This document shows, piece by piece, positions 20,347 through 33,852 of a stretch of 64,000 nt of DNA. The stretch is from assembly GCA_938010045.1 (NCBI GenBank), contig CALLFZ010000010.1, forward strand, positions 124,001 to 188,000. The letters are read 5' to 3'. The stretch comes from an uncultured bacterium. Its GTDB lineage: Bacteria; Verrucomicrobiota; Kiritimatiellia; PWTM01. Positions within the stretch are counted from its first letter, which is position 1; each line of letters starts with the position of its first letter. The notes under the pieces are model-generated. The model did not search any database, had not been told where the DNA came from, and was given only the letters and a program-made list of their open reading frames with translations. Position numbers and translations under genes: made by a program.

Positions 20347-21231
20347 GTGCGGGTGTTGATTCTTGGTGCGCGTGGGCAGCTTGGCCGCGAATGCGAGACC
20401 GTTCTTGCGCATGCGCACGAGGTGATCGCCGCCGACGTGCCGGAGCTGGATGTGACCCGACCGGACCAGGTGCGTCACCTGGTCTCGCACGTCCGTCCCG
20501 AGGCGATCGTGAACTGCGCCGCCTATACCCACGTGGACCGGGCCGAGGAGGAACGCCCGCTCGCCCATGCCGTCAATGCCGGCGGCGCCCGCATCATCGC
20601 CGAAGCCGCCCGGGCGCGTGGCGCGTTTCTCGTTCACATTTCGACGGATTATGTCTTCGACGGCCACCGCCCCCCGCCTCTGGCCTACACCGAGGCCGAT
20701 CCGCCGGCGCCGATAAATTGGTACGGCCGCACGAAGTTCGCGGGCGAACAGGCCATTCGCGAAGTCGGGCCGCGCCATGCGATCCTCCGCACCGCGTGGC
20801 TATACGGCCGCCACGGTCGCAATTTCCTAAAAACCATTCTCGCGCGCGCTTTGGCCGAACCGCGCACACCCCTCTGGGTCGTGTCCGATCAGTACGGTTG
20901 CCCCACATGGGCACATCGACTCGCCATGCAGATTGCCCTGATTCTCGAGCGACAGGCCGAAGGTCTGTTCCACGCCGCCGGCGAATGCCATGCCACCTGG
21001 TATGAGTTCGCGCGGCTCTTCCTCCGGCAAATGGGCCTCGAGACCATCGTCGAACCCTGCTCGTTGCGAGACCGTCCCACGCCAGCCCGCCGACCCGAAA
21101 ACAGCATTCTGCGCAATGCGCGCCTCACCGAGACCGGTCTCAACCTCATGCGACCGTGGGCGGAGGACCTCGCCGAATTCGTCGAGCGGCACCGCGCCGA
21201 CCTGATGCGCGAGGCGGCAGGTGCGCCATGA
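20347..21231 (+). CDS. rfbD: dTDP-4-dehydrorhamnose reductase
   Basis: Last step in dTDP-L-rhamnose synthesis: reduces the 4-keto group with NAD(P)H. The 294-residue protein has the N-terminal LILGARGQLGRE, NCAAYTHVDRAEEE, STDYVFDG and the catalytic WYGRTKFAGE with Tyr and Lys. These are all standard RmlD features. GTG at 20347 is preceded by GGGGAGGTGA. It overlaps rfbB by four bases (ATGA). rfbA and rfbC, needed for the whole pathway, are not in the window. Confidence 0.94.
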   Translation: MRVLILGARGQLGRECETVLAHAHEVIAADVPELDVTRPDQVRHLVSHVRPEAIVNCAAYTHVDRAEEERPLAHAVNAGGARIIAEAARARGAFLVHISTDYVFDGHRPPPLAYTEADPPAPINWYGRTKFAGEQAIREVGPRHAILRTAWLYGRHGRNFLKTILARALAEPRTPLWVVSDQYGCPTWAHRLAMQIALILERQAEGLFHAAGECHATWYEFARLFLRQMGLETIVEPCSLRDRPTPARRPENSILRNARLTETGLNLMRPWAEDLAEFVERHRADLMREAAGAP

Positions 21232-22292
21232 ACACCATCCTTGTCACCGGCGGCGCCGGCTTCATCGGTTCCGACTTCGTACGATGGCTCCTCGAAGATC
21301 GCGAGTTCGAAGGCCGCGTGGTCGTGTTCGATGCGTTCGCTCCCGGCGCCCATGCCGGTAGCCTCGCAGACCTGAAACCCCGCTTCGGTCCGCGATTCGA
21401 ACTCGTCCATGCCGACCTGCGCGACCGCACCGCGATCGAGTGGACCCTCGACACGTTCGGCGTGGACACGATCTGTCATTTCGCCGCGGAGTCCCACGTG
21501 GACCGATCCATCCGCGGTCCCGACGATTTCATCTCCACGAACATTCTCGGCACCTTCCACCTGCTCGAGGCCGTCCGAGCACGCCCCCAACGTATTCGGC
21601 GTCTCCACCACGTCAGCACCGACGAGGTTTTCGGCGAGCTCGGGCCCGAGGGCGCATTTTCCGAGATCACGCCGTATCACCCCAATAGTCCCTACTCCGC
21701 CTCGAAGGCCGCCGCCGATCACCTTGTGCGCGCCTGGCACCGCACCTACGGCTTGCCGGTGACCCTCTCGAACTGTTCGAACAACTACGGCCCCCGCCAA
21801 GACCCCGAGAAGCTGATTCCGCTGATGATCCTCCGCGCCCTCGAGGGTCGCCCCTTGCCGGTCTACGGCGATGGAATGAACGTCCGTGACTGGCTCTTCG
21901 TCCGCGACCACTGCCGCGCCATCGGACATATCCTCGATCGCGGACGCGAGGGGGAGACGTACTGCATCGGCGGCCACTGCGAACTCGCGAATCTCGACGT
22001 CGTCGGTCGCATCTGTGACCTCGTCGACCGGCTGGCGCCGCCCCTCTCCGACGGTCGGCCGCGCCGGTCTCTCATCACGTTCGTCGCCGACCGTCCCGGT
22101 CATGACCGCCGATACGCCATGGACTGCTCGAAGATCGAGCGCGAGCTCGGCTGGCGCGCGGAAACCCCGTTCGACATCGGCCTCGAACAGACCGTGCGCT
22201 GGTACCTCGAACATCCCGAATGGATCAGCGCCATTCGCGCCGGCGAACACCGCCGGCCTCCTCCGTACGCCCTCCGCCCGCCACCAGCTTGA
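21228..22292 (+). CDS. rfbB: dTDP-glucose 4,6-dehydratase
   Basis: Converts dTDP-glucose to dTDP-4-keto-6-deoxyglucose, using bound NAD+. It is 354 residues, normal for RmlB. Motifs: TGGAGFIGSDFVRW, HFAAESHVDRSI, STDEVFGEL, catalytic PYSASKAAADH and SNNYGPRQDPEKLIP. The start at 21228 overlaps the rfbD stop by four bases, so translation is probably coupled. The frame is open further upstream inside rfbD, but only this start begins at the Rossmann fold. Confidence 0.96.
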   Translation: MNTILVTGGAGFIGSDFVRWLLEDREFEGRVVVFDAFAPGAHAGSLADLKPRFGPRFELVHADLRDRTAIEWTLDTFGVDTICHFAAESHVDRSIRGPDDFISTNILGTFHLLEAVRARPQRIRRLHHVSTDEVFGELGPEGAFSEITPYHPNSPYSASKAAADHLVRAWHRTYGLPVTLSNCSNNYGPRQDPEKLIPLMILRALEGRPLPVYGDGMNVRDWLFVRDHCRAIGHILDRGREGETYCIGGHCELANLDVVGRICDLVDRLAPPLSDGRPRRSLITFVADRPGHDRRYAMDCSKIERELGWRAETPFDIGLEQTVRWYLEHPEWISAIRAGEHRRPPPYALRPPPA

Positions 22293-22322: not shown

Positions 22323-22784
22323 ATGCCACCCGCTCCGCGATCCGCCGGCCGCCTGCGGCGTGAGGCCGCCACGCTCCGGGCCATGATCATGCTCTACTGC
22401 GCCCATCATCACGCTCCGAGTCGTGGCGCACCGTGCGACGAGTGCCGCGATCTACTGGACTACGCGTTGCGCCGCCTCCACGCCTGTCCCTTCGGCGCCG
22501 AGAAGCCGGTCTGCTCGAAATGCCCTGTCCATTGCTACTCATCCCGCCGCCGCGACCAAATCCGCGCGGTGATGCGGTACGCCGGCCCTCGGATGCTCAA
22601 GGCCCACCCGTGGCTGGCCCTCGCGCATCTGTGGGATCGCCGCCGTGCCGCGCCGGCCGCCCCCCCGACACCTTCGCGCGCCAGCGCCGCCGATGCTACA
22701 CTGCGCCCCGTCCGCGCGGCGCCGCCGGTTGCGGACGGGAGAACGCGCCATGACGGCTGGCCAGCGTCCGAACCCCCAACCTGA
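22323..22784 (+). CDS. YgbA-like nitrous-oxide-stimulated-promoter family protein
   Basis: A cysteine-rich cytoplasmic protein of about 153 residues. The core has LYCAHHH, CDECRDLLDYALRRL, CPFGAEKPVCSKCPVHCY and VMRYAGPRML followed by HPWLAL. This is the signature of the YgbA family (PF11756), whose E. coli member is controlled by the nitric-oxide sensor NsrR. The clustered cysteines suggest metal or Fe-S binding, which is inference. GGCGGAGGG eight bases upstream favours ATG 22323 over 22317. The last 40 residues are low complexity, and the 3' end overlaps the next gene by 35 bases, so this C-terminus may be an extension specific to this genome. Confidence 0.85.
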   Translation: MPPAPRSAGRLRREAATLRAMIMLYCAHHHAPSRGAPCDECRDLLDYALRRLHACPFGAEKPVCSKCPVHCYSSRRRDQIRAVMRYAGPRMLKAHPWLALAHLWDRRRAAPAAPPTPSRASAADATLRPVRAAPPVADGRTRHDGWPASEPPT

Positions 22785-25314
22785 TCGCGTCGAGCGCCGC
22801 CGCCCCGGCGTCGGCGCCGCTGTGCTCCTCGCGTTCGCGCTCATCGCCGCGCTCCAGCTCTCCCCCGTCCTCATCCACCCTTCGCGCGTACTCGATTTCA
22901 ACGACGGCAACATCGAGTCCTCGCTCGCCCCCACCTATGCGCTGCCGGGCGCGTTGCTGCGCGTGTGGGACAATCAGTTTTTCTTCGGCATCGGGGGTAA
23001 ACAGTTCGCCCTCTGTACCGCGAGCATCGGTGAATGGATCTTCGGTCCGCACCACTACCGCCGCGAGGCGATCGCACTGATACTGGCCCTGGTCGGCGGC
23101 GCCGTCTATTGGATGTTGCGGCAGCTCGAAATCAGCCGCCTCCCGGCCGCGCTGACGGGCGGCGCGGTGATGCTCAGCGGCGCCGTCTTCAGCTTTGCGG
23201 TCCTCGGGCTGGCCGTCCGCGGCGCCGCGCTCGGCTTCGCCGCGCTCGCGCTTGGCTTCCTCGAGCGCGGCCGCCGGTCCGGTCGTCTCCTCCCTTACGC
23301 GCTCGCCGGCGGCTGCCTCGGTCTCGCGATCGCGGAAACACCCGATATCGGCGTCTTCTTCGCGCTCACCCTCGCCGCGGTCTTTGTCTGGCTCCACTGG
23401 CCCGCCGAACCTCGCGCGCTTCGCTCGTGGCGACCGCTGGCGGGTCGCTTCGCGCTCTTCGTCGCCGCGAGCGCCGCGCTCTCGCTGCAAACCCTCAGCG
23501 TCATGTTCGCGACGCAGATCGAAGGCGTGCAGCAGGGCGCCACCGAATCGCCCGAGGCCCGCTACGACTGGGCCACGCAATGGAGCCTGCCGCCGAACGA
23601 AACATGGGATCTCGTCGCCGGCACATTCTACGGCGCTAGCATGCGCTCGGCCGCCGCCCCCTACCGAGGCCGCATCGGGCGCTCTCCGGGCTGGACGCCC
23701 GACCAGCCCCAGCGCGGTTTCCGCAACTTCGCCATGACCGGCTATCACCTCGGCGTCATTCCCTCCGCACTGCTGCTCGCCGGCTGGATCGCGCTGCCCG
23801 CCTTCGACCGCGAACGACGCCGCCTCGCGTGGCTTTCTCTCATCGGCGCCCTTGTGTGTCTTGGGCTCGCATGGGGACGATACACGCCGCTCTACCGCCT
23901 CGTGTTCTCCCTCCCCTACCTCGGCACCATCCGAAATCCCGAGAAATGGCTCATGCCCTTCATGCTCTTCGCGGCGTCCGGCATCGGCCTGGCGCTCGAC
24001 TCGCTCCGACGACATGCGGGTTCGGCCACCTCCGAGCGCGGGATCTCTCTTCCGACCGCCCTTGTCCGCGCCTCTCTGCTGATCGCGGTCGTCGCGCTGC
24101 TGACCCTCCTCGCGACGGTCCTCGGCCAGGACGCGTTCCGCGCCGGCATGGCGCGGGAAGGCTATGCCCCACCGCAGATCGACGCCGCGTGGCGCACTGC
24201 CCTCCGTGCCTCGCTTCGCGTCCTCCTCTTGAGCGGTGGTGTCGCGGCGCTCACGCGACTCCTCGCCCGCCCCTCGCCGTGGCTGCCCCGCCCGCTCGCC
24301 ACTCCCGCAGCCGCCATATCCGCCCTCGCCCTCGCCGGCGCGCTCGACCTCGTCCTCGTCAACCGCCACTACGTCGCCGGCCGGGAGTACCGCCACATCC
24401 TCGAACCCAATCCACTCACCGCGTTCGTCGCTCAACACCGCGGCGACGGCCGGTTCAAAATCCTCCCCGCCGACCACCCCGCGCTGAACTATCTCCGCAT
24501 GTCGTTTCTTCAAACATCCGGCTGCGACCTCTTCGATCCCGTCAGCGTCTCACGCCTCCCCACGGACTACGCCGCGCTGTTTGACGCTCTCCAGCCGCAC
24601 TCCTTCCGCCTGTGGTCGCTCGGCGCAGTACGCTATTTCGTGACCCTGCGCGGCGGCCCCGAGCAACTCGAACAGCTCGACGGCAACCGCGGCCGCATTC
24701 GTGACATCTGGGGCTGCGGCCTCGCGCAGCATCCCGACGGTACGATCCGTCCCGTCTCCGCTGTCCCGCCCGATCAGCAGTTCCTCCGAATCGCCGAGTT
24801 CGCGGCCGCCCGCCCCAAATGGTTCTTCCCCGCGCGCCTGCGGATCGTCACACCCGACCCAATCCAGTCGGAACGCGCCACGCTCGAGCATCTGCGCGCC
24901 CCGGACTTTGACCCGCTCACCGAAAGCGTCGTTGTGTCCTCAAACGCGCTGCCCACAGCCGGTTCCGAGGCTCGCCGGCTTCGTGTGCTGCGCGACGAAC
25001 CGACCGCCGCGGACATCGAAGTCGAAACTCACTCCGATGCGCTCCTGGTGCGTGCCGTGCGCTACGATCCCGATTGGCGCGTGACCGTGGACGGCCGCCC
25101 CGCCGCCCTTCTCCGCGCCGACTACATCATGCAGGCCGTCGTCGTGCCGGCCGGTCGCCACCGCGTCGTCTGGGACTACCGCCCCTCGCCCGCCCCGCTC
25201 TACGCCGCGATTGCCGGCCGTGTGGGTTGGCTCGTCCTCTGGCTTCTTTGGCGTTGGCCGCCGCGCTCGGCGGCGCCGCGTCCCTCGCCGCACCCTGTTC
25301 GTGCCGCGTCCTGA
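22750..25314 (+). CDS. YfhO-like polytopic membrane protein
   Basis: About 854 residues. Roughly the first 560 residues carry a dozen hydrophobic segments with short polar loops. The last 300 form a soluble domain ending in the family-typical DPDWRVTVDGRPAALLRADY ... VPAGRHRVVWDYRPS, then a final transmembrane pass. This matches the YfhO family (PF09586) of integral membrane proteins thought to act in cell-surface glycosylation, with a GT-C-like fold. Function in this organism is unknown. The start at 22750 is the first good ATG ahead of the first transmembrane segment; the longer frame from 22645 begins in arginine-rich, shadow-like sequence. It overlaps the ygbA-like gene by 35 bases and may be cotranscribed with rfbDB. 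Confidence 0.83.
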   Translation: MTAGQRPNPQPDRVERRRPGVGAAVLLAFALIAALQLSPVLIHPSRVLDFNDGNIESSLAPTYALPGALLRVWDNQFFFGIGGKQFALCTASIGEWIFGPHHYRREAIALILALVGGAVYWMLRQLEISRLPAALTGGAVMLSGAVFSFAVLGLAVRGAALGFAALALGFLERGRRSGRLLPYALAGGCLGLAIAETPDIGVFFALTLAAVFVWLHWPAEPRALRSWRPLAGRFALFVAASAALSLQTLSVMFATQIEGVQQGATESPEARYDWATQWSLPPNETWDLVAGTFYGASMRSAAAPYRGRIGRSPGWTPDQPQRGFRNFAMTGYHLGVIPSALLLAGWIALPAFDRERRRLAWLSLIGALVCLGLAWGRYTPLYRLVFSLPYLGTIRNPEKWLMPFMLFAASGIGLALDSLRRHAGSATSERGISLPTALVRASLLIAVVALLTLLATVLGQDAFRAGMAREGYAPPQIDAAWRTALRASLRVLLLSGGVAALTRLLARPSPWLPRPLATPAAAISALALAGALDLVLVNRHYVAGREYRHILEPNPLTAFVAQHRGDGRFKILPADHPALNYLRMSFLQTSGCDLFDPVSVSRLPTDYAALFDALQPHSFRLWSLGAVRYFVTLRGGPEQLEQLDGNRGRIRDIWGCGLAQHPDGTIRPVSAVPPDQQFLRIAEFAAARPKWFFPARLRIVTPDPIQSERATLEHLRAPDFDPLTESVVVSSNALPTAGSEARRLRVLRDEPTAADIEVETHSDALLVRAVRYDPDWRVTVDGRPAALLRADYIMQAVVVPAGRHRVVWDYRPSPAPLYAAIAGRVGWLVLWLLWRWPPRSAAPRPSPHPVRAAS

Positions 25315-27284: not shown

Positions 27285-28238
27285 ATGAGCGCGCCTCGTT
27301 TTCAACACGTTTTAGTCACCGGCGGCGCCGGCTACATCGGGTCCGTCCTCGTCCCACTGCTGCTGGCCACCGGACGCCGTGTCACCGTCCTCGATAATTT
27401 TCTCTACCATCAAACCTCCCTGCTCGACTGCTGCCACAATCCCAACCTCGACATCATCCGCGGCGATGTGCGCCACGAGACCCTCCTGCGCCGCCTGCTC
27501 GACTCCGACGTCGACGCCATCCTCCCCCTCGCCTGCATCGTCGGCGCCCCCGCCTGCGACCGCTGGCCGGCCGAGGCCCGCGCCATCAACCTCGACGCCA
27601 TTGCCTTGCTTCTGCGCCTCCGCCGTCCCGAGCAATGGGTCATCTTTCCGAACACCAACAGCGGCTACGGGGTCGGCGAGAGCGGCATCGAATGTACCGA
27701 AGATTCCCCCCTGCGACCTGTCTCGCTCTACGGTCGCCTCAAGGTCGAGGCCGAACGCCTCGTGCTCGACGCCGGCCGCAGCATCTCCTTCCGCCTCGCC
27801 ACGGTCTTCGGCATCAGCCCCCGCATGCGCCTTGATCTCCTCGTCAACGACTTCACCTGGCGCGCCGTAACCGACCGCTTCGTCGTCCTCTTCGAAGCCC
27901 ACTTCAAACGAAATTACATCCACGTCCGCGACGTCGCGCGCGCCTTCCTCCATGCCCTCGACAACGCTGATCGCATGGCCGGCCAGGCCTACAACGTCGG
28001 CCTCAGCGACGCGAACCTCTCGAAGCTCGAACTCTGCCTCGAAATCAAGAAGCAGGTCCCCGACTTCACCATCATGGAGGCGCCCGTTGGCAAAGATCCC
28101 GACCAGCGAAACTACATCGTCAGCAACGCGAAAATCGAGGCCACCGGCTACCGTCCTGAGGTCTCGCTCGAACAGGGCATCGCCGAGCTGATCAAGGGCT
28201 ATCGGATCCTGCGCGGCCCCCGTTTTTCCAATGTCTGA
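27285..28238 (+). CDS. NAD-dependent nucleotide-sugar epimerase/dehydratase (extended SDR)
   Basis: A 317-residue extended short-chain dehydrogenase. VLVTGGAGYIGSVLVPLLL binds NAD, and LYGRLKVEAE carries the catalytic Tyr and Lys. RNYIHVRDVARAFLHAL is typical of sugar-nucleotide epimerases and dehydratases. The serine position lies in NTNSGYG. It opens the seven-gene sugar cluster, separated from the next gene by 153 bases. ATG 27285 begins right at the Rossmann fold; the frame is open through repeat cluster C, but that part is not protein-like. Whether it epimerises or dehydrates, and on which GDP- or dTDP-sugar, cannot be read from sequence. Confidence 0.88.
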   Translation: MSAPRFQHVLVTGGAGYIGSVLVPLLLATGRRVTVLDNFLYHQTSLLDCCHNPNLDIIRGDVRHETLLRRLLDSDVDAILPLACIVGAPACDRWPAEARAINLDAIALLLRLRRPEQWVIFPNTNSGYGVGESGIECTEDSPLRPVSLYGRLKVEAERLVLDAGRSISFRLATVFGISPRMRLDLLVNDFTWRAVTDRFVVLFEAHFKRNYIHVRDVARAFLHALDNADRMAGQAYNVGLSDANLSKLELCLEIKKQVPDFTIMEAPVGKDPDQRNYIVSNAKIEATGYRPEVSLEQGIAELIKGYRILRGPRFSNV

Positions 28239-28391
28239 ACCGATGCCGGACACGACCGCCAGCCCGCCCGTCCCACACACACCCCCCTTGTGCCCGCCAG
28301 AACCGCACCACCCGGCGGGACCCGACATGGAAACTTCTCCCATGCGCCGTGCCACCACCATCGGCGACTCCGCCAGGCCAAGCGAGGCAGC

Positions 28392-29342
28392 ATGACCATG
28401 TACCAACGCATCCTCGTCACCGGCGCCACCGGCTTCCTCGGTCACCACATCGTCCCGGCTTTGCGCCGCGCCTTCCCGGCGGCCGATCTCATCGCCGTCG
28501 GCCGCCGCCAGTGCGACCTTCTCCAACCCGGCGCCGCCGACCGCCTCCTCGCCGACACCCGCCCCGATGCCGTCGTCCACCTCGCCGCCAGGTCCGGCGG
28601 CATCGAAGACAACCGTCTGCGCCCGGCCGACTACTTCTATGAAAATCTCACCATCAACACCGCCACCTTCCATGCCGCCTTCCGCGCCGGCGTCAGAAAA
28701 TTCCTCACCCTCATGGGCGGCTGCTCCTACCCGGCCAAGGCCGTCTCCCCCATCGGCGAGGACCAGATGTGGAACGGCTTCCCTCAAATGGAAAGCGCCG
28801 GCTATTCGGTCGCGAAAAAGGTCATCCTTGTGCAATCGTGGGCCTATCGCGTCCAGCACGGCTTCAACTCCGTCGTCCTGATCCCCGGCAACGTCTACGG
28901 CGAATACGATAATTTCAATCTCACTCAGGCCCACGTCATCCCCGCGCTGATCCGCAAGTACATCGAGGCGCGCGACCGCGGCGACGCCGACATCGTCGCC
29001 TGGGGCACCGGCCGCCCCACCCGAGACTTCGTCTACGCCGGCGACGTCGCCGCCACCATCCCGTGGTTCCTGGCCAACTACGACTCCAGCGAGCCCGTCA
29101 ACATCTCCAGCGGCACCCGCATCTCCATCCGCGAGCTCGCCGAAACCGTCGCGCGCGTCGTCGGCTTCCACGGCGTCATCCGCTGGGACACCTCCAAACC
29201 CGACGGCCAGATGGACAAAATCTTCGACGTCACCCGCCTCCGCTCCCTCGGCCTCTCGTGCCCGACTCCACTCGAAGAGGGCCTGCGCCGCACCGTCGCC
29301 TGGTTCGAACAGGCCCGCCACGAAGGAACCGTCCGCCTGTGA
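28392..29342 (+). CDS. GDP-L-fucose synthase-like NAD(P)-dependent epimerase/reductase
   Basis: A 316-residue extended SDR resembling WcaG/Fcl. It has the N-terminal ILVTGATGFLGHHIV, HLAARSGGI, the active-site GGCSYP and GYSVAKK holding Ser, Tyr and Lys. IPGNVYGEYDNFN and RDFVYAGDVA complete the pattern. WcaG relatives epimerise and reduce 4-keto-6-deoxy GDP-hexoses, and related enzymes work on GDP-heptoses. ATG 28392 or 28398 are both possible. Its stop overlaps the next start (GTGA), marking the start of a run of six translationally coupled genes. Confidence 0.87.
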   Translation: MTMYQRILVTGATGFLGHHIVPALRRAFPAADLIAVGRRQCDLLQPGAADRLLADTRPDAVVHLAARSGGIEDNRLRPADYFYENLTINTATFHAAFRAGVRKFLTLMGGCSYPAKAVSPIGEDQMWNGFPQMESAGYSVAKKVILVQSWAYRVQHGFNSVVLIPGNVYGEYDNFNLTQAHVIPALIRKYIEARDRGDADIVAWGTGRPTRDFVYAGDVAATIPWFLANYDSSEPVNISSGTRISIRELAETVARVVGFHGVIRWDTSKPDGQMDKIFDVTRLRSLGLSCPTPLEEGLRRTVAWFEQARHEGTVRL

Positions 29343-30148
29343 CCACCTCCCCCATCACCGTCCTCGTCCTCGGCGCCAAAGGGTTCGTCGGCTCCGCCGT
29401 CGCCGCCGAGGCCGTGCAGCGCGGTGTTCGGCTCCTCGCCGTGGACCAGCACGACTACGACGCCGCGCGCGGCGCCGCCTGCGATGTGCTCATCAACGCC
29501 AACGGCAACTCGAGAAAATACCTCGCCGCTCAGGACCCCGCGCTCGAATTCGATCTCTCCGTCCGCTCGGTCGAGCGCTCGCTGCACGATCTTCGCTTCG
29601 GCCTCTACGTCCACCTCTCCTCCTGCGACGTCTATGCCGACCCATCTTCACCGGCCACCACCGACGAGGACGTCCCCGTGGACCCGCGGCGTCTTTCGCA
29701 GTACGGCTTCCACAAATGGCTCGCCGAACAACTCGTTCGCCACGATGCCCGACGCTGGCTCATCGTTCGCATGGGCGGCTTCGTCGGCCCGCGCCTCTGG
29801 AAGAACTCGATCCACGACCTGCTCACCGGTGCGCCACTCCGCGTCCATCCCGACTCCGCCTACCAGTACCTCGACACCCGCGACTTCGCCCGGATTCTCT
29901 TCACGCTGATCGCCGCCGGCCTCGAAGAGACCATCATCAATGTCACCGGCGACGGCGCCGTACCCCTCCGCGAAGTCGCCGATTGGCTTGGCCTCGCCGC
30001 CCCGCCGGTCGTGGCGGACAATCTGCCCCTCGAACGCTACGAGATCGCCCTCGACCGTCTTCGCCGGCACGTCGTGCCTCCCTCCACCCGCGAAACGGTC
30101 CAGCGCTTCCTCGAGGAATGCCGACGGCTCGGAGGGATCCCCACATGA
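29339..30148 (+). CDS. dTDP-4-dehydrorhamnose reductase-like SDR
   Basis: A 269-residue Rossmann protein with VLVLGAKGFVGSAV, LSSCDVYAD and SQYGFHKWLAEQLV, giving Ser, Tyr and Lys. It is shorter than RmlD, and its C-terminal substrate domain is only loosely similar. GTG at 29339 overlaps the previous stop by four bases. It is likely a sugar-nucleotide reductase or epimerase in the same pathway. This is the third such enzyme in the cluster, implying several modifications of one nucleotide sugar. Confidence 0.8.
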   Translation: MTTSPITVLVLGAKGFVGSAVAAEAVQRGVRLLAVDQHDYDAARGAACDVLINANGNSRKYLAAQDPALEFDLSVRSVERSLHDLRFGLYVHLSSCDVYADPSSPATTDEDVPVDPRRLSQYGFHKWLAEQLVRHDARRWLIVRMGGFVGPRLWKNSIHDLLTGAPLRVHPDSAYQYLDTRDFARILFTLIAAGLEETIINVTGDGAVPLREVADWLGLAAPPVVADNLPLERYEIALDRLRRHVVPPSTRETVQRFLEECRRLGGIPT

Positions 30149-31131
30149 TCATTGCCCGCGCCCCCTTCCGCATCAGTTTCTTCGGCGGCGGCACCGACTT
30201 CCCTGACCACTACCGCCTCCACGGGGGCGCCGTCCTCGGTGTCACGCTCGATCGCTACGCCTACCTCGCGCTGCACCGCCTCAGCCCCCTCCTCACCTAC
30301 CGCTATCGAGCCAGCTACTCCAAAACCGAACTCGTCAACGATCCCCGCGAGTTTCAACATCCTCTGATCCGCGAATGCCTCAGCCTCGTCCCCACTCGCG
30401 CCGGCGTCGAAATCGCCCACGTCGCCGACCTTCCTGGCCGCACCGGCATCGGCTCCTCCTCCGCCTTCACCGTCGCGCTCCTCCACGCGCTCCACGCGTT
30501 CCGCGGCGATCGCGTCGGACCCGAAGACCTCGCCCGCGAAGCCATCGAGGTCGAACGCGTGCGCGTCGGCGACGCCGGCGGGCATCAGGACCAATACTTC
30601 GCCGCCTACGGCGGCCTGCTGCGCCTCGACTTCGGCCCCGGCAACGCGATCCGCGTCCGCCGTGTGGGCGTGCGCGCCGAAACCCTCGACGCCCTCGAAC
30701 GCCGCCTGCTGCTCTTCTACCTGGGCCGCGAAGAGTCCGCCCAACATATCCTCGTCGAACAACAACGGCGCACCCGTCGTAACCTCACCGTCCTACGCCG
30801 CCTCGCCGCCCTCGCCGACAACGGCGAAGCCGCGCTCGTCGCCGCCGACTGGGCCGCCTTCGGCCGCTTCCTCGACGAAGGATGGTCCCTCAAACGCACC
30901 CTTGCCGGCGGCATCAGCAACCCCGAGATTGACGCCGCCTACGACGCCGCCCGCCGCGCCGGCGCGCTCGGCGGCAAACTGCTTGGCGCCGGCGGCCGCG
31001 GCTTCCTGCTCGTCTTCGCCGAGCCCGCCCGCCATCGCGCCGTGCGCCGCGCCCTCGCCCGCCTCCGCGAATTACCTGTTCGCCTCGGCCACACCGGCTC
31101 CTCGCTCATTCTGCACGAACGCGACGAATGA
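30145..31131 (+). CDS. GHMP-family sugar kinase, D-glycero-D-manno-heptose 7-phosphate kinase-like
   Basis: A 328-residue kinase with the N-terminal RAPFRISFFGGGTDFP, the GHMP ATP-binding motif LPGRTGIGSSSAFTVALL, and a C-terminal GGKLLGAGGRGFLLVF. That combination is typical of HddA, which phosphorylates heptose 7-phosphate at C1, and of its close relatives acting on fucose or other sugars. The HddC-like nucleotidyltransferase in the same operon (33067-33852) supports the heptose assignment. However, no GmhA isomerase or GmhB phosphatase is present in the window. ATGA overlap with the previous gene. Confidence 0.86.
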   Translation: MIIARAPFRISFFGGGTDFPDHYRLHGGAVLGVTLDRYAYLALHRLSPLLTYRYRASYSKTELVNDPREFQHPLIRECLSLVPTRAGVEIAHVADLPGRTGIGSSSAFTVALLHALHAFRGDRVGPEDLAREAIEVERVRVGDAGGHQDQYFAAYGGLLRLDFGPGNAIRVRRVGVRAETLDALERRLLLFYLGREESAQHILVEQQRRTRRNLTVLRRLAALADNGEAALVAADWAAFGRFLDEGWSLKRTLAGGISNPEIDAAYDAARRAGALGGKLLGAGGRGFLLVFAEPARHRAVRRALARLRELPVRLGHTGSSLILHERDE

Positions 31132-32189
31132 CCATCGCCGCCCAGCCGTCGCCGACCTTCTTTCCGGCGGCATCGCCGGAGGACAATCCCACGCCCGTCC
31201 TCTCCATCGTCATCCCATTTCGCAACGAGGAAACCACCCTTCCTATCGTCCTCGACTCCCTCGCCGCGCAGCGATTCGACCGCCCCTTCGAGGTCATCTT
31301 CGTAGACGGCCACTCCACCGACCGCTCCGTCGAGGTCATCCGCGCCCACCCACTTGCCCGCCGCGCCGACGTCCGGATCCTACCGGCGCCGCCCGAACGC
31401 GAAGGCATGAATCATGCCCGCAATGACGGCGCCCGCGCCGCCCGCGCCCCAATTCTCCTCTTCATGCAGGCCGATGTCCGCATCCGCGATCCCAACGCCC
31501 TCGCCGCCGTCCTCCACGCCTTCGACGACCCCGCCGTCGTCGCCACCACCTTCACCGGCCTCGGCGCGGGCAGCGACTTCCGCCGCTACGACCTCTGGGG
31601 CCGCATCTTCCTCGCTCGCTACCAGCGTCTCCGCTGCGAACACGACCTCGATACGAAATTCAACGGCGTCCGCCGCGATGTCTTCAACCGCATCGGCGGT
31701 TTTGATGAAACTCGCTTCCCGTTCGGTGGCGAGGACTTCGAGTTCCGCGTCCGCCTCGCCCGCGAGGGCCGCATCGCCGACACCGGCGTCGAGGTCGAAC
31801 ACCTCCATGGCTACGGCCGCCGCCACACGCCCCTCGGGCTGCTCCGCAAATACGCCCGCAACGCCGAGTGCATGGGTGCCACCGTCCCCGTCTACCTCCG
31901 CAATCTGCGCCACGAACCCGGCTACCTCCGCCACTTCGCCGCGCGCAACCTGCTCGTGCTCGCTTGCATTGCCTCGCTCGTGCCCGCCGCGTGGCCTTGG
32001 GCTCCACTCGCCGTCCTCGCCTTCGCCGCCGCCTGGAGTGCCCCCGTTTGGCTCGAAGTCCGCGACTGGCGCCTCCCCTTTGTCCTGCCCCCCTTTGCGA
32101 TCGCGGCAATGTATGTCTTCACAGTGTATTATCTGCGCGGCCTGATCGCGGGCCGCACCCGCGTCCGGCTGAGGACCACGACCGGATGA
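31128..32189 (+). CDS. Family 2 glycosyltransferase with C-terminal membrane helices
   Basis: A 353-residue inverting GT-A enzyme. SIVIPFRNEETTLPIVL begins the nucleotide-binding fold, VDGHSTDRS and LFMQADVRI supply the acidic metal-binding residues, and FGGEDFEFRVRLAR holds the likely catalytic ED. After about residue 265, two or three hydrophobic helices suggest membrane anchoring at the inner face. It probably transfers the sugar made by the cluster onto a lipid-linked acceptor. Coupled to its neighbours by four-base overlaps on both sides. Confidence 0.9.
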   Translation: MTIAAQPSPTFFPAASPEDNPTPVLSIVIPFRNEETTLPIVLDSLAAQRFDRPFEVIFVDGHSTDRSVEVIRAHPLARRADVRILPAPPEREGMNHARNDGARAARAPILLFMQADVRIRDPNALAAVLHAFDDPAVVATTFTGLGAGSDFRRYDLWGRIFLARYQRLRCEHDLDTKFNGVRRDVFNRIGGFDETRFPFGGEDFEFRVRLAREGRIADTGVEVEHLHGYGRRHTPLGLLRKYARNAECMGATVPVYLRNLRHEPGYLRHFAARNLLVLACIASLVPAAWPWAPLAVLAFAAAWSAPVWLEVRDWRLPFVLPPFAIAAMYVFTVYYLRGLIAGRTRVRLRTTTG

Positions 32190-33070
32190 GCACGCCCAAC
32201 GAGCCCACCGGCCCCACGCCGGCCGCTCCACCCGTCGCGCGCCCGCGCATGCGCGCGCGCGATGTCGCACGCGTCCACGAACTCTGCATCCGCCTCGACC
32301 CCGAGCTCCGCGACGCGCGCGTCCACCCAGAGGCCCGCCGTGCGATGTGGACCCGCTACCGCGCGATCATCTCCACGCTCCGCGATCTGTTGCCCCCTGC
32401 CGTTGCCCATCCGCGGCCGCGCGGCCTCGAAATCGGCGTCGGCGAAGGCACCCTGCTGCTGCTCCTCCATGAATTCGTCCCTCAACTGCGCTGGGAAGGC
32501 CTCGACCTACCCCGCCGCCACGCCGCCTACCAGGCCGAGTTCGACCGTCTCCTCCGCGACCGCGGCCTCTCCCTCACCGAGGCTGATCTGACACGTGACC
32601 CGCTTCCGTTCCCCGACGCCGCCTTCGCCGCCGTGTCCTTCTCCGAGGTCGCCGAGCATCTTCCGCCCAATGTGCTGCTCCCCACCCTCCGCGACATTGC
32701 CCGCGTGCTCGCGCCCGGCGGCCTGCTCGTCGCCACCTCGCCGAACCTCACCTCCCTGCTGAACCGCGTCCTCATCGCGGTCGGGGTCAGCCCCTTCCAC
32801 CTGCCCGTCTCCGAAGACATCGCCGGCTGCGCCACCTACCCTCACATCCACCTCTACACCGCCCGCGAATTTGAGGCGCTGTGTCGGCTCGCCGGACTCG
32901 AACCGATCCGCCGCGACCACCTCACCTACCTCGCCGGCGCCTTCTTCACCGTCGGCCGCCCTCTCCGCAACGCTGCCATGCGCCTGTACCTCGCCGGCGA
33001 ACTCCTCCTCGGCACTCTCCTCCCCGGCCTTCGCGATGGCTGGCTCCTCGCCGCCCGCCGCCCCGCATGA
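32186..33070 (+). CDS. SAM-dependent methyltransferase (class I)
   Basis: A 294-residue protein. GLEIGVGEGTLLLLL is the SAM-binding glycine loop, and FAAVSFSEVAEHLPP and ARVLAPGGLLVATSPN are the type-11 methyltransferase landmarks. The C-terminal part is hydrophobic and may lie against the membrane. In this operon O-methylation of the sugar or glycan is the likely role. Both ends overlap neighbours by four bases. Confidence 0.88.
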   Translation: MSTPNEPTGPTPAAPPVARPRMRARDVARVHELCIRLDPELRDARVHPEARRAMWTRYRAIISTLRDLLPPAVAHPRPRGLEIGVGEGTLLLLLHEFVPQLRWEGLDLPRRHAAYQAEFDRLLRDRGLSLTEADLTRDPLPFPDAAFAAVSFSEVAEHLPPNVLLPTLRDIARVLAPGGLLVATSPNLTSLLNRVLIAVGVSPFHLPVSEDIAGCATYPHIHLYTAREFEALCRLAGLEPIRRDHLTYLAGAFFTVGRPLRNAAMRLYLAGELLLGTLLPGLRDGWLLAARRPA

Positions 33071-33852
33071 ACACCCCCGTCATCATCCTCTGCGGTGGCC
33101 GCGCCACGCGCCTGGCCTCGATGTTCCCCGATACCCCCAAGGCCCTCGTCCCCGTCGCCGGCCGCCCCTTCCTCCTCTGGCAACTTGAATGGCTGGCCGC
33201 CGGCGGCGTCCGCCGCGTCCACCTCGCCGCGGGCCACCTCGCCGACCGCTTCGTCGCATGGCTCACGTCCACTGCCCACCGCATCGGCCACTCTCCCGCC
33301 CTGTGGCAGCTCGACATGCCCGCCCTCCCCGCGCCGCTCGAGCTCTCACTCTCGATCGAACCCGCCCCGCTCGGTACCGGCGGCGGACTCCGTTTCGCAG
33401 CCGACACCCTCGCGCCGTCGCTCCCCTTTCAACGTGCCCTCGTCCTCAATGGCGATTCCCTCCTTCCCCGCCTCAACGTCCAATCCTTGGACGCCGCCCT
33501 CGCTCACACGTCCAATCGTTGGACACTCATCGCCGTCACTCATGTCCCCGACGCCGCCCGCTTCGGCACCATTCGCCTCGACGGCACACGGATCCTCGCC
33601 TTCGAGGAAAAGGGCCACTCCGGCCCCGGTCTCATCAATGGCGGCGTCTACGCCATGACCCGCGATGCGATTCGCGCCATCCCCGCCGGCCGCCCGTTCT
33701 CGATCGAACACGACGGCTTCCCCATCTGGACCGCCGCCGGATTCCTTCACGCGTTCGAAGCGCCCCCGCCGCTCTACGACATCGGAACCCCGGACGGCCT
33801 CGCCGAACTCGAACGCGCCCTCTCTTCCGCCCGCGCCATCCGGAAGCTCTGA
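33067..33852 (+). CDS. Sugar-phosphate nucleotidyltransferase, HddC-like
   Basis: A 261-residue nucleotidyltransferase. ILCGGRATRLASMFPDTPKALVPV is the nucleotide-binding signature, with GTGGGLRFA, VLNGDSLLP for the metal-binding Asp, and INGGVYAM. This size and pattern match HddC, which makes GDP-D-glycero-alpha-D-manno-heptose, and similar mannose- or glucose-1-phosphate transferases. It closes the sugar cluster. The ATGA overlap with the methyltransferase suggests all the proteins are made together. Confidence 0.88.
   Translation: MNTPVIILCGGRATRLASMFPDTPKALVPVAGRPFLLWQLEWLAAGGVRRVHLAAGHLADRFVAWLTSTAHRIGHSPALWQLDMPALPAPLELSLSIEPAPLGTGGGLRFAADTLAPSLPFQRALVLNGDSLLPRLNVQSLDAALAHTSNRWTLIAVTHVPDAARFGTIRLDGTRILAFEEKGHSGPGLINGGVYAMTRDAIRAIPAGRPFSIEHDGFPIWTAAGFLHAFEAPPPLYDIGTPDGLAELERALSSARAIRKL

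Follow-up and report, generated by a model that had tools for sequence, protein, structure and literature searches.

A seven-gene cassette predicted to make and remodel GDP-linked heptose in an uncultured member of the Kiritimatiellia

How could a bacterium run a heptose operon without the isomerase and the phosphatase needed for the route to the activated sugar? This question is raised by a run of six genes in a 64,000-nucleotide stretch of contig CALLFZ010000010.1 (hereafter the window), which belongs to an uncultured bacterium of the class Kiritimatiellia (Verrucomicrobiota) and for which an initial annotation proposed a GDP-heptose pathway lacking GmhA and GmhB. We find that the unit is one gene longer than described, starting at an upstream gene designated U and spanning positions 27285-33852 with seven genes, U and A to F (Table 1). 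Loci (in related genomes or the window's own), genomes and the contigs of the window's own genome are labelled L, G and C, respectively, followed by a number. According to our analysis, which is based on sequence comparison, the unit probably produces a GDP-linked heptose and reshapes it for a surface glycan, all substrates and reactions being predicted ones.

The gene that strengthens the heptose reading most is U. Among proteins of solved structure its best match is 6vo6 (E value 2.3e-117, 394.7 bits), with the same residue in 174 of the 309 alignment columns (56%), and the runner-up follows with an E value of 7e-19 and 71.2 bits. We take 6vo6 to be Cj1427 of Campylobacter jejuni, a GDP-heptose C4-dehydrogenase, the name of the PDB entry itself being vague. 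This wide gap between 6vo6 and all other solved proteins favours the heptose reading, and U is predicted to be a GDP-heptose C4-dehydrogenase like Cj1427. Enzymes of this type oxidise GDP-heptose with alpha-ketoglutarate as acceptor, according to excerpts from PMC10680097. In relatives, U precedes A.

A is an extended short-chain dehydrogenase/reductase (SDR) with the GDP-fucose-synthase fold. The structural model of A (pLDDT 91.5) has human GDP-fucose synthase as its best match (TM 0.91), and its sequence identity to E. coli Fcl is 35%. It scores 271 bits against the GDP-fucose-synthase family (cut-off 500), and no other protein of the window's genome reaches this cut-off or equals the score of A. 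Of the Fcl residues, Cys109, Tyr136, Lys140, His179, Arg209 and Lys283 are retained, with the epimerase pair Cys109/His179 present in every aligned cassette copy of A. On the other hand, all 35 copies of A examined carry Gly in place of Ser107 of Fcl, as do the A proteins of L098 and L100. A Ser or Thr at this place is described as part of the reductase triad in excerpts from PMC7949155 and PMC12362431, so that the Ser/Thr-Tyr-Lys triad of A is incomplete, with Tyr and Lys retained. Thus, A shares with GDP-L-fucose synthase (Fcl/GFS) the fold and the pairs Cys109/His179 and Tyr136/Lys140, but differs from it by Gly in place of Ser107. The situation is opposite to that in the Campylobacter C4-reductases, in which the Ser persists and the Cys/His places are taken by Tyr/Arg (MlghC) or Thr/His (DdahC), as stated in the excerpted text of PMC7949155. 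We predict that A epimerises a 4-keto sugar and may have shed its reductase function.

Relatives of the cassette bear on what follows A. In L042 and L046, B is absent and a DegT aminotransferase gene stands immediately after C. DegT adjoins C in none of the 28 loci with A, B and C, but in both of the two loci without B (Fisher p 0.0023); L036 and L080 do contain remote DegT homologues (24% and 29% identity), but about 7 and 6 kb off. Among 345 genomes of the class, DegT was found at an E value of 1e-120 in six, none of which belongs to the 46 genomes with B at 1e-40, the scored candidates per genome being mostly the best five in the A and DegT searches and the best seven in the B search. Four newly fetched DegT loci (L098-L101) were chosen as a test, and DegT adjoins C in all four, giving six such relatives altogether; L098 and L100 have the order U-A-C-DegT without B, and L099 and L101 end inside C. 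An acetyltransferase like that of L046 is found in each of L098-L101, but not in L042. Taken over the 32 loci with A and C, B is present in 28, DegT beside C in four and both in none. Judged by the starred branches, the two states must have been exchanged three times or more on the A tree and twice or more on the C tree; these two trees, like those of the kinases and nucleotidyltransferases, are quick trees without bootstrap.

The nearest NCBIfam models of the DegT protein and most of its best PDB matches are, by name or by what we take to be their role, enzymes acting on C4 of nucleotide sugars. It falls into the same superfamily as the C4 aminotransferases of the PseC, ArnB and perosamine-synthase type; unlike these systems, the cassette in the window has no DegT, and the substrate in relatives would be GDP-4-keto-heptose. 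Because a keto-sugar aminotransferase takes the place of B in relatives, a ketone is probably left after A, and given this ketone the simplest role of B is probably that of a C4 ketoreductase. In B, all 16 copies aligned have Ser94, Tyr122 and Lys126 unchanged. The model of B (pLDDT 92.3) retrieved generic extended SDRs in the fold search (best Z 28.1), with several tied best rows, and therefore no function can be deduced from the fold. We regard it as unlikely that A is instead fully bifunctional, epimerising and reducing a heptose as GDP-fucose synthase does with its own substrate, with B doing something else, such as a further oxidation or epimerisation: Tyr136, Lys140 and the overall fold are retained in A and the loss of Ser alone need not end reduction, but this loss extends to 35 of 35 copies, and the aminotransferase replacing B in four of 32 loci requires a ketone after A.

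The initial annotation had derived GDP-heptose from an HddA-like kinase (C) and an HddC-like nucleotidyltransferase (F), of which the kinase has the better support. The best PDB matches of C are heptose kinases with 157.6, 134.9 and 97.2 bits, followed by a fucokinase with 69.3 bits. The catalytic residues of WcbL, listed as R13, D22, S118-S120, Q162 and D163 in excerpts from PMC4691232, are matched in C by R9, D18, S104-S106, Q148 and D149, although fucokinase has most of them too, so that they do not discriminate. The kinase tree (42 rows) was rebuilt after long branches had appeared, by dropping a fucokinase fragment and one remote kinase and adding two fucokinase-type proteins of the genus. 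These two fucokinase-type (FKP) rows split off with a support of 100, but were used as outgroup; the wider group of C comprises 37 rows (support 88), including kinases encoded beside gmhA or SIS genes. The genome itself carries a separate fucokinase-type protein far from C in this tree, and sister kinases of C adjoin gmhA in L052, L063, L067 and L070. The best PDB matches of F are heptose-pathway proteins as well (5xhw, 84.9 bits; 6jq8, 81.1 bits), with a mannose enzyme at 69.3 bits, and in the nucleotidyltransferase tree the support is too weak to place F. Grouping of the two enzymes with fucose or mannose enzymes, named at the outset as the finding that would speak against heptose, was thus not seen for the kinase, and F gave weak and partly contrary signals.

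Domain scans detected neither gmhA nor gmhB among the seven cassette genes. The isomerase and the phosphatase are, however, missing from the operon only, and a genome-wide search, which the initial annotation had suggested, turned up homologues of both in the window's genome (3.2 Mb in 49 contigs, 98% complete). A GmhA-type isomerase is encoded on contig C40 (TIGR00441, 193 bits, cut-off 209) and a more distant SIS protein on C20; GmhB-like phosphatases are found on C9 and C46 (NF006506, 130 and 117 bits, cut-off 178), and a third GmhB-like match lies on C38. As the matches to GmhA, GmhB, HddA and HddC in this genome are below the NCBIfam equivalog cut-offs, their identity is judged from homology plus context. 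In L098, a GmhB that passes two models' cut-offs is encoded beside U-A-C in divergent orientation, as is a GmhA-type protein (178 bits, cut-off 209). With homologues in the genome and both genes beside U in L098, a true lack of GmhA and GmhB was rejected. A parallel is known from C. jejuni NCTC 11168, whose capsule-heptose GmhB (Cj1152) is likewise encoded away from the capsule cluster according to excerpts from PMC10680097. We also detected an HldE-type kinase on C48 (318 bits, cut-off 345) and, on C11, an HldE-type nucleotidyltransferase and HldD, both above cut-off. The ADP-heptose route is therefore likely present, judged by these homologues, and heptose-7-phosphate should be available. 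HldE seems to be split in this genome, the kinase gene standing beside a kdsB-like gene (C48:25360-26310; L016) and the nucleotidyltransferase gene beside HldD (C11:96075-96491; L078).

A second sugar cluster on contig C20 (L012:7144-12245) encodes HddC-like and HddA-like proteins, a transaldolase (PF00923), the SIS protein, an oxidoreductase, an SDR, an epimerase and a glycosyltransferase. The transaldolase may feed sedoheptulose-7-phosphate. Clusters of the C20 type were also seen in the relatives L052-L055, L057, L058, L060 and L062, several of which include a gmhB homologue.

In the proposed pathway, a GmhA-type isomerase encoded elsewhere in the genome would supply heptose-7-phosphate, which C would phosphorylate at C1 before a GmhB, likewise encoded elsewhere, removes the C7 phosphate. 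F would couple the heptose-1-phosphate stage to GTP, yielding GDP-heptose. U would then oxidise C4, as Cj1427 does, A would epimerise the 4-keto sugar at C3 and/or C5, and B would afterwards reduce C4. Finally, D would transfer and E methylate the sugar. In relatives, DegT in the place of B, mostly together with an acetyltransferase, would lead to a 4-amino heptose.

The cassette is not confined to the window. Of 387 genomes in the phylum, 33 have an A homologue at an E value of 1e-90 or better, and every one of these belongs to the class. Among 39 loci we counted U-A-B-C 17 times, A-B-C 11 times, A-B four times, U-A-C twice, B-C once, A alone once, U alone twice and none of them once, some of the gaps being due to contig ends or more distant copies of U. 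The locus counts omit L011, which duplicates L032; L081 and L082 stem from one genome, and L095-L097, retrieved on account of U or a remote homologue of A, are among the 39 as non-cassettes; four loci added later bring the total to 43. U-A-B-C is the core that recurs across the class. D-E-F adjoin C in three of the 39 loci only, all from the window's own genus (L031-L033). The resemblance to modified-heptose pathways of Campylobacter capsules, suggested initially by several SDR enzymes and a methyltransferase, is therefore supported for the pathway, with U as the best evidence, but not for the methyltransferase, which lies outside the conserved core. None of the 39 loci contained gmhA, gmhB, SIS or transaldolase genes, although the same search detected gmhA in L052, L063, L067 and L070. 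A + B occur without C alongside in L081, L082, L083 and L089.

In a set of 58 genomes including the window's own, C (at least 52% identity) is present in 28, U (at least 64%) in 26 and both in 22 (Fisher p 8e-7), and a SIS match to the GmhA of contig C40 is found in 28 of 28 genomes with C (in some of the C20 type only) versus 20 of 30 others (p 8e-4); these p values ignore the kinship of the genomes.

This disregard of kinship is one of several points that weigh against the heptose reading. C and F are far below the curated HddA and HddC cut-offs: C reaches 112.5 bits with the HddA model NF049969 (cut-off 600), and F scores higher with the NCBIfam mannose model (101.1 bits, cut-off 440) than with the HddC model (82.3 bits, cut-off 300), both values being below cut-off. 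Next to an isomerase, the C20 cluster encodes a kinase and a nucleotidyltransferase of its own, so that two such pairs exist in one genome, and gmhA and gmhB adjoin the cassette in just one of 43 loci (L098). Genome G052 (89% complete) has U and part of A, but neither C nor a SIS match. Some reductase activity of A is possible, given that Tyr and Lys of the triad persist, and the top PDB match of DegT is named as an inositol transaminase.

Part of this evidence would suit a hexose pathway, in which C acts on a hexose, for instance mannose or fucose, F makes a GDP-hexose and the three SDRs U, A and B turn this into one that is fucose-like or of another kind. The mannose score of F, the likeness of A to GDP-fucose synthase at a level that no other protein of the genome attains, and the match of C to fucokinase would fit. 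Yet 6vo6 is by far the nearest solved relative of U, C is nearer to heptose kinases and far in the tree from the separate fucokinase-type protein, and gmhA and gmhB stand beside the cassette in L098; we therefore consider a hexose pathway quite improbable. More doubtful still is a heptose route that bypasses the 7-phosphate, with C phosphorylating free heptose and GmhA and GmhB unneeded. That gmhA and gmhB adjoin the cassette in no more than one of 43 loci would agree with it, but in that one locus both genes are there, and the SIS match in all 28 genomes with C speaks against it. We thus retain the GDP-heptose reading.

The layout of A to F was described correctly at the outset. The six open reading frames lie on one strand at 28392-33852, and all five junctions are four-base overlaps, GTGA at 29339 and ATGA at 30145, 31128, 32186 and 33067. 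This overlap coupling marks A-F as an operon, yet it is ordinary for the genome: they join 26 of 102 adjacent same-strand gene pairs, as counted with a simple gene caller over the window plus seven further pieces of the genome, and we rejected four-base overlaps as a sign of anything unusual. Between the end of U and the start of A, 153 bases are found in the window, whereas the two genes abut or almost abut in the relatives L037, L042, L044 and L046. D, a glycosyltransferase gene, had gone without mention in the initial annotation, and E is without a close solved relative (best PDB match with an E value of 1e-4). Our promoter scan detected no promoter-like sites, terminator-like sites numbered two versus 3.6 in shuffled sequences, and an Rfam scan gave nothing at gathering score.

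Table 1. Genes of the cassette and their predicted products (positions refer to the window)
Gene	Product	Position	Strand	Remarks
U	Cj1427-like SDR, predicted GDP-heptose C4-dehydrogenase	27285-28238	+	upstream of the range initially annotated
A	SDR of GDP-fucose-synthase fold, predicted GDP-4-keto-heptose C3/C5 epimerase; Gly replaces the reductase Ser/Thr	28392-29342	+	
B	Extended SDR, predicted C4 ketoreductase	29339-30148	+	GTG start
C	HddA-like GHMP kinase, predicted heptose-7-phosphate C1 kinase	30145-31131	+	
D	Family-2 glycosyltransferase	31128-32189	+	PF00535, E value 3.7e-22
E	Class I methyltransferase, probably acting on the sugar	32186-33070	+	PF13489, E value 3.6e-14
F	HddC/GMPP-like sugar-1-phosphate nucleotidyltransferase	33067-33852	+	

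Some neighbouring genes were also noted. A few kb upstream, at 20347-22292 of the window, two SDR genes with a four-base overlap resemble rmlD and rmlB by eye. Large proteins, alike by eye, are encoded near the cassette in the window (22750-25314), L047 (6631-9102) and L098 (14940-17348). A DUF2961 protein (PF11175), which we presume might be a hydrolase for the finished glycan, is found near the cassette in L037 (5036-7357) and also in L038, L044-L046, L049, L086-L088, L092, L098 and L101.

For C. jejuni HS:2, excerpts from PMC10680097 describe a pathway of GmhA (Cj1424), HddA (Cj1425), GmhB (Cj1152), HddC (Cj1423), C4-dehydrogenase (Cj1427), C3/C5-epimerase (Cj1430) and C4-reductase (Cj1428). 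The cassette shares with it the HddA-like kinase, the HddC-like nucleotidyltransferase, the Cj1427-like C4-dehydrogenase and an SDR of GDP-fucose-synthase fold, but differs by the separate SDR B, which is exchangeable with DegT, and by a GmhA that in the window's genome is encoded away from the cassette. No cupin epimerase was found among the seven products, to which this search was confined, and the Campylobacter arrangement, in which a cupin performs the C3/C5 epimerisation and a GFS-like enzyme the C4 reduction, does not describe these products. Literature searches for GDP-heptose with Planctomycetes, GDP-mannoheptose with Verrucomicrobia and heptose biosynthesis in Kiritimatiellae retrieved nothing, which shows little as the phylum names were guessed, and neither did a search for gene clusters of heptose C4-dehydrogenase homologues.

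In summary, the heptose reading is strengthened by U and the puzzle of the missing genes largely dissolves; what remains of interest are the altered A and the exchange of B for DegT. We propose, rather tentatively, that the cassette is a modular heptose factory of one bacterial class, in which C4 oxidation is followed by epimerisation through an A that has shed its reductase function, and the product is finished either by a ketoreductase or by DegT, the latter giving GDP-4-amino-4-deoxy-heptoses. Such sugars are not known to have been described, though no search for them by name was made. As a variant of a known modified-heptose pathway, the cassette would extend the C4-oxidation route from Campylobacter capsules to another bacterial class. 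It also suggests that one fold has been split in two ways: Campylobacter kept the reductase and employs an unrelated cupin epimerase, whereas here the epimerase would have been kept and reduction taken over by another protein. The natural exchange of B and DegT makes the order of the enzymes directly testable, and on its basis 4-amino heptoses are to be expected in the relatives that encode DegT.

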